From Exiguobacterium sp. Helios (GTDB lineage Bacteria > Bacillota > Bacilli > Exiguobacteriales > Exiguobacteriaceae), in the NCBI RefSeq assembly GCF_014524545.1, contig NZ_CP053557.1:1327501-1391500 (forward strand): a stretch of 64,000 nucleotides of DNA, read 5' to 3'. Position 1 is the first letter of the stretch, and every line of letters starts with the position of its first letter. A program made the translations under genes and the position numbers. Positions 16,578 through 36,817 of the stretch are shown here, one piece after another. The notes under the pieces are model-generated. The model had not been told where the DNA came from. It worked only from the letters and a program-made list of their open reading frames with translations, and did no database searches.

Positions 16578-16817
16578 AAAGAAGTTGGACGAAGACGAAA
16601 CCGAAGTAGAAACAATCTCCCTGTTTCAGAGAGCACGTGGCGCTGCGAACGTGTACACAGATTGAATCGAATTACAGTTTCCGAGTCTCTTGCCATGCAA
16701 GCGGAGAAAACCGTTATCCCGTAATGAAGCGATCTATGTCTACGTAGATTATCAGGGTGGTACCGCGGCCTTTTGTCGTCCCTGTCGAACATCTTTGTTC
16801 GGCAGGGACTTTTTGTT
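16578..16817 (+). promoter_or_regulatory. T-box riboswitch, probable tyrosine specifier, upstream of phhA
   Basis: The leader has all T-box landmarks. Stem I carries an AGTA (16605-16608) facing GAATTACA (16669-16676), and an AGAGAG...GTGG...CTG apical region (16627-16646). The T-box core TGGTACCGCG is at 16758-16767, and a terminator follows at 16778-16817. In Stem I, GACGAAAC pairs with GTTTC...GTC below the specifier loop and CAATCT with AGATTG above it. The codon immediately before the conserved A and the lower helix is TAC (16673-16675), Tyr. Uncharged tRNA-Tyr would favour the antiterminator and turn on phenylalanine-to-tyrosine conversion. UUA (Leu) is the alternative register. Confidence 0.88.
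16778..16817 (+). terminator. T-box regulatory terminator
   Basis: GTCCCTGTCGAAC pairs with GTTCGGCAGGGAC (one G-U), followed by TTTTT. This is the attenuator of the T-box leader; the antiterminator formed with the T-box core competes with it. Confidence 0.9.
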
Positions 16818-35141: not shown

Positions 35142-35272
35142 TGAAAAAAAGTCCCTTCTCCGTAATGGAAAAGGGACTTTTTGCAGATGTCGGGCATCTG
35201 CGTGGAATCAAGAGGGGAATCCCTCTTAAAAGAAGCCGATGCAGGTCAGCTTCTGCGCTACGTAACAATCGT
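35142..35272 (-). ncRNA. Candidate small regulatory RNA, about 130 nt
   Basis: No open frame is found here, yet the minus strand has a consensus promoter, several stable hairpins and a terminator. From the promoter, the RNA would contain AGAAGC...GCTTCT (loop of 12), AAGAGGG-ATTC-CCCTCTT, GCAGATG-CCCGA-CATCTGC, and a terminator stem with seven U. The unpaired or loop segments include C-rich stretches (ATTCCCC, CCCGA) of the sort used by Firmicute small RNAs to cover Shine-Dalgarno sites. hfq lies 1.3 kb away. I do not recognise it as a known RNA family (not SRP RNA, 6S, tmRNA, RNase P, RoxS/RsaE or FsrA by eye). The ends are estimates. Confidence 0.6.
35144..35183. terminator. Bidirectional terminator shared by the permease gene and a minus-strand small RNA
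   Basis: AAAAGTCCCTTCTCC pairs with GGAAAAGGGACTTTT (one G-U/mismatch) with T runs on both strands: TTTTT on plus, TTTTTTT on minus. Confidence 0.88.
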
Positions 35273-35278
35273 ACTTTT

Positions 35279-35307
35279 ATCATAGCGATTCCAGTAATTG
35301 GTGTCAA
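35279..35307 (-). promoter_or_regulatory. Consensus sigma-A promoter of the small RNA
   Basis: Read on the minus strand: TTGACA (35307-35302), 17-bp spacer, TATGAT (35284-35279). This is the best promoter match I noticed in the window, and no protein gene follows it. Confidence 0.75.
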
Positions 35308-35379
35308 ACCTGCTTGAAAGGGTTTACGAAATCCCGGATTTGTCAAAAGGTATCTAAAGACAACGAGGAGGTGCCCGAC

Positions 35380-35472
35380 ATGACAGATTGGGGAATCATG
35401 CTGACCGGTTTAGTGATTTGCGGATGGTGTGTATTTAGTGCAGTATATGACGACTTTATTCGTCGGGTCTAA
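35380..35472 (+). CDS. 30-residue putative single-span membrane peptide
   Basis: A short gene with a strong GAGGAGG site 8 bases before its ATG and its own terminator 16 bp after the stop. The peptide starts MTDWGIML, has one hydrophobic segment (about residues 5-22, with GLVICGWCVFSAVY) and ends in a charged tail DDFIRRV. Two cysteines lie in the span. I do not recognise it. It is divergent from the candidate small RNA, a layout known from type I toxin-antitoxin loci and from small membrane-protein regulators. The segment from its Shine-Dalgarno to the start codon (35369-35381) can pair with the leader-like sequence 35187-35199 over 13 positions. Confidence 0.65.
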   Translation: MTDWGIMLTGLVICGWCVFSAVYDDFIRRV

Positions 35473-35487
35473 CAGAAGCAACTGAGT

Positions 35488-35515
35488 CGTCTTCCTTAGT
35501 GGGAGACGTTTTTTT
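35488..35515 (+). terminator. Terminator of the small membrane-peptide gene
   Basis: CGTCTTCC pairs with GGGAGACG (one G-U) around TTAGT, followed by seven T. Confidence 0.85.
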
Positions 35516-35580
35516 GTCCTGTCGTCCGCTTGTCCGGATATGATACACTGACTACAAAAATGTATGAACTAGGAATGGTG

Positions 35581-36519
35581 ATGTCATTGAGTAAACAGCC
35601 CGTCATTGTCATCGTTGGACCGACTGCCGTCGGAAAAACCAAGACAGGAATTGAATTAGCAAAACGGTTAAACGGAGAAATCATTTCAGGAGATTCCGTT
35701 CAGGTCTATAAACAGATGAATATCGGATCCGCGAAGGTGACCCATGAAGAAATGGACGGGATACCGCACCATCTGCTCGATCTGGTTGATCCGGACGACG
35801 AGATGAGTGTCGCCCGTTTTCAGACGTTAGCCCGGACGGCGATCGATGAGATTGCGGCAAAAGGCAAGTTACCGATCATCGTCGGCGGAACCGGACTTTA
35901 TATCCGTGCGATCCTGTATGATTATCAATTTACCGTTCAGGCAGAAAATAAGGTCTTGCGCGAGGAACTGGAACAGTTTGCACAAGCGGAAGGAGCTGCA
36001 GCTCTTCATGACCGCCTGCGGCAACTGGACGCGAAACGGGCGGACGAGATCCACCCGAACAATATTCAACGGGTCGTCCGGGCAATTGAGGTCGCAATGA
36101 GCGGACAAACGCAGACGTCCGGCAGTGAACCGAGTTTGTATGACAGTCTGTTGTTCGTCTTACATATGGAAGACCGGGAACAGCTGTACACGCGGATCGA
36201 TCAACGGGTCGATCTGATGCTCGATCAAGGGCTCGTCCCTGAAGTCGGACAGTTAGTCGCAGCTGGTTATAAAGAAACCAAAGCGATGCAGGCAATCGGC
36301 TACAAGGAAATCGTCCCGGTTCTTGAAGGAGCGCCGCTCGAACCGGCTGTTGAGCAATTGAAACGGAATACCCGACGCTTCGCAAAACGGCAGTTAACAT
36401 GGTTCCGCCATCAATTTGACGGAAATTGGATTGAAATGGGAAGGCTTTCATTTGAAGAAAACTTCAAAATTATCTATGATAGAACAGTAGGGTTTCTGAA
36501 AGCGGTTAAATCGGAATAG
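35581..36519 (+). CDS. miaA: tRNA dimethylallyltransferase
   Basis: MiaA adds a dimethylallyl group to A37 of tRNAs reading UNN codons. The 312-residue protein has the P-loop GPTAVGKTKTGIELAKRL (about residues 14-31), the DSVQVYK motif (about 40-46), GGTGLYI (about 107-113) and the C-terminal RQLTWFRHQ. ATG 35581 is chosen because AGGA lies 7 bases upstream; an in-frame ATG at 35530 has no ribosome site. It precedes hfq by 46 bp, as in B. subtilis and many other bacteria. Confidence 0.95.
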   Translation: MSLSKQPVIVIVGPTAVGKTKTGIELAKRLNGEIISGDSVQVYKQMNIGSAKVTHEEMDGIPHHLLDLVDPDDEMSVARFQTLARTAIDEIAAKGKLPIIVGGTGLYIRAILYDYQFTVQAENKVLREELEQFAQAEGAAALHDRLRQLDAKRADEIHPNNIQRVVRAIEVAMSGQTQTSGSEPSLYDSLLFVLHMEDREQLYTRIDQRVDLMLDQGLVPEVGQLVAAGYKETKAMQAIGYKEIVPVLEGAPLEPAVEQLKRNTRRFAKRQLTWFRHQFDGNWIEMGRLSFEENFKIIYDRTVGFLKAVKSE

Positions 36520-36565: not shown

Positions 36566-36817
36566 ATGAAGGCAACGTACAACATTCAAGACTATTTCCT
36601 AAATCAATTGCGTAAAGATTCAGTTCCGACGACAGTATTTTTAATCAGCGGGTATCAGTTACGGGGATTGATCAAGTCGTTTGATAACTTCACCGTCATT
36701 TTGGAATCAGAAGGCAAACAACAATTGATTTACAAGCATGCCATCTCGACATTCGCACCGGCACGGAATGTGACGCTGTATGAACAAGAGGCGGAAACGG
36801 AAGAAGTCACACGTTAA
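36566..36817 (+). CDS. hfq: RNA chaperone Hfq
   Basis: An 83-residue Sm-like protein. Sm1 is seen in [41 protein letters not shown], with the Q-x-x-x-L and FD-N-F positions expected of Hfq, and Sm2 in YKHAISTF (the YKH motif of the proximal face). It forms hexamers that help small RNAs pair with targets. The core is about 65 residues with a short acidic tail, the usual Gram-positive form. It follows miaA and is ended by a strong terminator. Confidence 0.95.

Follow-up and report, generated by a model that had tools for sequence, protein, structure and literature searches.

A structured small RNA and a divergent 30-residue membrane peptide gene, both conserved beside miaA-hfq in Exiguobacterium

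Between the genes for an ABC-2 permease and MiaA, Exiguobacterium sp. Helios carries two divergent small elements, a structured small RNA on the minus strand and a 30-codon gene on the plus strand. Along the plus strand, the gene for the ABC-2 permease (+) is followed by the small RNA (-), the 30-codon gene (+), miaA (+) and hfq (+), the last of these adjoining miaA and encoding an RNA chaperone (Table 1). The window, by which we mean the whole stretch of 64,000 nucleotides that was analysed, was compared with genomes of the same family, and Exiguobacterium sp. RIT594 carries the locus in a copy that is 97% identical. A published phylogeny (PMC10837837) recognises three parts in Exiguobacterium: clade I, which is nonsaline, clade II, which is saline, and E. 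flavidum, which stands isolated. Our genus set g1 (n = 19 genomes) consists of clade I species and E. flavidum, and the sister-genus set g2 contains a further 19 genomes, for a family total of 38; we assume g2 to be clade II, given the way in which GTDB splits the genus. Both the RNA and the 30-codon gene occupy the same site in all g1 genomes, at identical divergent spacing.

Table 1. Positions of the features of the locus within the window.
Feature	Position	Strand	Remarks
Small RNA, about 130 nt, structured (predicted)	35142..35272	-	predicted start 35272, end in U-run near 35142
Sigma-A-type promoter of the small RNA	35279..35307	-	TTGACA (35307-35302), 17-nt spacer, TATGAT (35284-35279)
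Conserved 70-nt RNA core	35203..35272	-	unpaired 5' tail, hairpin 1, hairpin 2, then GATTCCA
Unpaired 5' tail of the core		-	ACGATTGTTACGTAGCGC, 18 nt; nearly invariant
Hairpin 1	35254-35231	-	loop CCUGCA, nearly invariant
Hairpin 2	35229-35208	-	within the 70-nt core
Hairpin 3	35201-35183	-	sequence turns over between clades
Intrinsic terminator of the RNA	35182-35146	-	sequence turns over between clades; absent in L012-L020
Candidate sigma-B-type promoter of the peptide gene	35301..35325	+	GTGTCA-13-GGGTTT, conserved block in g1
Ribosome-binding site	35365..35371	+	GAGGAGG, 8 nt before ATG
30-codon gene, predicted single-span membrane peptide	35380..35472	+	MTDWGIMLTGLVICGWCVFSAVYDDFIRRV; 38/38 family genomes
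Intrinsic terminator of the peptide gene	35488..35515	+	hairpin with U-run; separates gene from miaA
miaA (IPP transferase)	35581..36519	+	PF01715 match
hfq	36566..36817	+	PF17209, E 3.5e-32

The initial annotation had described a minus-strand TTGACA-17-TATGAT followed by three hairpins and a terminator over about 130 nt, and both parts of this description hold. The promoter is present at 35307-35279, matches the consensus at 11 of 12 positions and keeps its hexamers and spacing unchanged throughout g1 (19/19 genomes), while the predicted fold of the segment 35272-35138 (-), at -58.4 kcal/mol, comprises three hairpins and a terminator, with z = -8.2 against dinucleotide shuffles. The RNA core finds matches in 19/19 g1 genomes (E = 3e-22 to 8e-14) and is single-copy, with one strong match per genome, all other covariance-model matches being at noise level. 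Among 12 distinct core sequences, hairpins 1 and 2 covary: 6 of their 14 pairs are changed on both sides, in 12 cells, and standard pairs occupy 98.8% of the cells across the 14 pairs. The covariation score of 0.331 compares with a shuffled mean of 0.195, was matched by none of 500 shuffles and also lies above the scores of all slid versions of the alignment. Of the hairpins, whose conservation had been proposed as a check, the first two are conserved in g1; hairpin 3, like the terminator, is nearly wholly different between clades. The terminator is kept in ten of the 19 g1 genomes, E. flavidum included; because it may also serve the convergent ABC permease, we do not count it as independent evidence for the RNA. 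The most invariant parts of the RNA are unpaired, namely the 18-nt 5' tail and the CCUGCA loop of hairpin 1, a pattern that would be typical of target-pairing RNAs.

The same minus-strand element could in principle encode a small protein, with the ATG within TATGAT as its start codon, and most genomes do contain an open frame that begins MIKVRL(L/V)RSAEADLHRL. That frame, however, has no ribosome-binding site, is only 17 codons long in E. flavidum before it stops and is shifted by an indel between clades, breaks for which it was rejected as a coding frame, and it is the stems that covary instead; we give a protein-coding origin of the element virtually no weight. The RNA had no match in Rfam, Pfam, NCBIfam, PHROGs or PADLOC. 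In the Rfam covariance-model search no family exceeded its gathering score and nothing rose beyond noise even at E 5, the best score on the RNA strand being 20.9 bits for PyrR against a cut-off of 54. Elsewhere in the window, Rfam identifies a T-box leader at 16583-16786 (+) (RF00230, 106 bits). No RNA core was detected above noise among the 19 g2 genomes. The best g2 covariance-model match (L087/L107, G019) lies just after a gene and consists of a hairpin, with GCCGACCTGTATCGGC as its near-identical stem-loop, and a trailing U-run; its resemblance to hairpin 1 is probably due to chance. The RNA has so far been found only in g1, that is, in Exiguobacterium clade I and E. flavidum. It is very likely a real transcript, and, as far as sequence comparison can tell, the RNA itself is near certain to be a structured non-coding RNA of an undescribed family.

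In nine g1 genomes (L012-L020), one of which is that of E. indicum, the ABC permease and the RNA are separated by a P-loop kinase gene on the RNA strand, and in these genomes the U-run terminator is missing and a strong GC-rich hairpin has been gained. The inserted kinase is of a shikimate-kinase/AAA-like P-loop type. Because the kinase gene lies downstream on the same strand and the U-run terminator is missing, the RNA core in these nine genomes is probably the leader of the kinase gene, a small RNA that was apparently captured. This arrangement, together with the leader-like succession of hairpins and terminator, would also suit an RNA that works in cis, as a leader, and not as a small RNA in trans, one that senses or attenuates with the terminator as its output and still leads a gene in nine genomes. 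In the other ten g1 genomes, however, no gene follows the RNA on its strand and the next one is the convergent ABC permease, and kinase relatives are present elsewhere in the genome in nine of these ten, E. flavidum having none. Since the core is single-copy while the kinase relatives sit elsewhere or are absent, the core does not travel with the kinase, and the location of these relatives at other sites, along with their absence from E. flavidum, makes the stand-alone RNA look ancestral. We therefore consider a general cis-acting role improbable.

On the plus strand, the 30-codon gene with GAGGAGG, an ATG at a distance of 8 bases, a predicted membrane span and a terminator of its own, as initially described, was seen at 35365-35515, the terminator being placed at 35488-35508 and, in Table 1, at 35488..35515. 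A strong purine-rich site precedes the peptide start in the genomes aligned, and a terminator-like hairpin with a U-run follows the gene in nearly all genomes shown, its stem sequence differing between clades; in clade I this terminator usually stands between the peptide gene and miaA. Ahead of miaA, an extended -10-like element, TGRTACACT (35538-35552), is kept across clade I, which suggests that transcription of miaA-hfq starts afresh, from a separate promoter downstream of the terminator that ends the peptide gene. The peptide combines a hydrophobic segment (best 19-residue hydropathy mean 1.91) with a charged C-terminus, YDDFIRR, and is predicted to insert in the membrane as a single span. 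Its gene is a single-copy core gene in every genome, including all 19 g2 genomes, in which it also stands ahead of miaA and encodes MSDGLILLLGLLICGWMLFAVVFDDTIKRRI or close variants thereof; across the g1 and g2 alignment the residues M1, G10, C14, W16, F19, D24, D25, I27 and R29 are invariant. In the clade I sequences, variable sites fall on codon positions 1, 2 and 3 in the numbers 5, 0 and 24, with 20 codons varying only synonymously and four with a residue change, and pairs of sequences with 19-22 base differences differ in 2-4 residues, compared with the 11-13 that would be expected if sites were random. Within the sequences compared, this pattern shows a frame under strong purifying selection as a protein. 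The frame, whose integrity in relatives had been named as a point to verify, is conserved with this coding signature in 38/38 family genomes, and we have next to no doubt that the gene is real.

The peptide likewise found no family match in Pfam, NCBIfam, PHROGs or PADLOC, in keeping with the initial impression that neither part of the locus resembles a known one, and no credible relative outside the family was found in a sample of 300 Bacilli genomes. Three weak matches in that sample were rejected: two, on inspection, are parts of a thiolase-like protein and of a membrane transporter, and the third falls inside an open frame of 415 residues. Prli42 (DUF4044, PF13253) is a miniprotein of the membrane that has been connected with sigma-B and the stressosome in Listeria. 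The Exiguobacterium peptide is similar to it in size, in its one membrane span and in the link to sigma-B proposed here, but differs in the charged residues at its C-terminus. Homology to Prli42 was rejected, as the peptide does not match PF13253; nor did any of 11 family genomes yield a PF13253 match over the cut-off. The suggestion that the locus holds a regulatory RNA and a gene for a short membrane peptide, both of them new, is supported.

A type I toxin-antitoxin-like pair, the other possibility initially raised, fared less well. With the layout of tisB/istR-1, the RNA would be the antisense antitoxin and the peptide a putative membrane toxin, and the short hydrophobic peptide, the divergent structured RNA and a possibly stress-induced peptide promoter are what such a pair would display. 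Known type I antitoxins pair with the toxin mRNA over at least 18 nt, IstR-1 having 21 nt complementary to the tisB 5' UTR (PMC4147584), and we took at least 18 nt as the threshold for antisense pairing (PMC4147584). The longest stretch of the RNA that is complementary to the predicted mRNA of the peptide, in contrast, is 6-8 nt in each of the 19 g1 genomes, no longer than random neighbouring pieces give and not conserved in position, and the total duplex energy equals that of shuffles. The two elements also do not obligately co-occur: both are present in 19/19 g1 genomes, but the peptide stands alone in 19/19 g2 genomes, where the sequence upstream of it is unrelated to the RNA. The locus thus resembles tisB/istR-1, shoB/ohsC, zor/orz and dinQ/agrB in pairing a divergent structured RNA with a gene for a hydrophobic peptide of about 30 residues, and perhaps in stress control of the peptide promoter; it differs from these divergent pairs in that the RNA has no antisense pairing region and the peptide is encoded by an invariant core gene, strongly selected in every genome and conserved without the RNA. 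The only features common to the locus and the type I pairs are the divergent layout and the short hydrophobic peptide. Because complementarity does not exceed chance and the peptide is kept without the RNA in g2, the toxin-antitoxin reading appears, from the genomes compared, to fail in both of its testable defining features, pairing and co-occurrence; it is not supported, and we judge it highly improbable.

The DNA between the two elements may instead hold their regulation. A conserved block ahead of the peptide gene extends beyond the -35 of the RNA promoter and ends after GGGTTTAC at 35327. In g2 the corresponding place reads TTGTGTCTAAA(A/G)TGTGAAAA..GGGAA, and since g2, which has no RNA, keeps GTGTCT-14-GGGAAT ahead of the peptide, the block serves the peptide. 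We read the g1 and g2 blocks as candidate sigma-B-type promoters (GTGTC, a spacer of 13-14 nt after the hexamer, GGGWWT). Within the same bacterial family, the promoter of the rsbV-rsbW-sigB operon reads GTTTAA/GTTTCA-13/14-GGGAAW (GTTTAAAGATGTTCAAATGCGGGAAT), and the candidate peptide promoter matches it in spacing and -10; sigB itself was over the TIGR02941 cut-off in 13/13 genomes examined. The assignment has its weaknesses: the candidate -35 reads GTGT, not GTTT, the candidate -10 of E. flavidum would be GCGTTT, and with a relaxed sigma-B motif the peptide site is one of 8 matches in 64 kb, about 1 per 16 kb per strand by chance. The candidate -35 of the peptide gene (35301-35306) and that of the RNA (35302-35307) have positions 35302-35306 in common, on opposite strands. 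Between the two promoters lies an inverted repeat, AAACC-N10-GGTTT (window 35300-35327), which in E. flavidum has changed symmetrically to AAACGC-N8-GCGTTT; it could instead be the operator of a regulator. We also weighed whether the conserved block might contain a cre (CcpA) site and dismissed the idea, as the central CG is replaced by CC everywhere except in E. flavidum.

The reading we prefer, to which we tentatively assign a probability of about 0.45, is that of a probably trans-acting small RNA transcribed by sigma-A and a stress-inducible membrane peptide under a sigma-B-type promoter, with transcription mutually exclusive at the -35. The leftward sigma-A promoter would give rise to the structured RNA of about 130 nt, which would probably base-pair in trans, using the unpaired 5' tail and the loop of hairpin 1, both invariant, and might act with the Hfq encoded next door. 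The rightward promoter, of the general stress type, would produce a monocistronic mRNA for the 30-residue single-span membrane protein. Because two polymerases cannot hold the common -35 bases at once, mutually exclusive transcription is the simplest model, and the RNA would be made in growth and the peptide under stress. We infer the use of sigma-B, the competition between the promoters and any physiological role. Going further, the locus might constitute a compact stress switch made of two new gene families, in which the sigma factor chooses RNA or peptide from one -35 and the membrane peptide would modulate the stress response or the envelope; we hold this to be rather unlikely.

A trans-acting role for the RNA is likewise inferred as probable. 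In its length of about 130 nt, its own sigma-A promoter, its conserved unpaired 5' tail and loop and its intrinsic terminator it is like the trans-acting small RNAs of Firmicutes, but it differs from them in having no Rfam match, in being confined to g1 and in that partial seed searches gave no target. Of the sites exactly complementary to the hairpin-1 loop, most proved to be Met-Gln-Val codons within genes; sites nearly complementary to the 5' tail also fell within genes, secY among them. Neither set contained a target, and we set these sites aside as coding coincidences.

The RNA and the peptide gene could also be unrelated neighbours, a conserved small RNA and a conserved membrane peptide that sit in one intergenic region with separate regulation and no functional coupling. 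The presence of the peptide without the RNA in all g2 genomes, the absence of RNA-mRNA complementarity and the imperfect sigma-B motif all agree with such independence, whereas the unvarying spacing in 19/19 g1 genomes and the promoters with common -35 bases argue for a connection; we regard independence as a possibility to be taken seriously, if a doubtful one.

Exiguobacterium is known for its tolerance of cold, salt and drought. At this locus the genus harbours a small RNA family and a miniprotein family that are absent from the libraries searched and universal in the genus sampled, and the sister genus, which has this miniprotein but not the RNA, amounts to a natural experiment. Should the common -35 be functional, it would constitute a very small switch from housekeeping to stress transcription and back, and one that can be tested directly.
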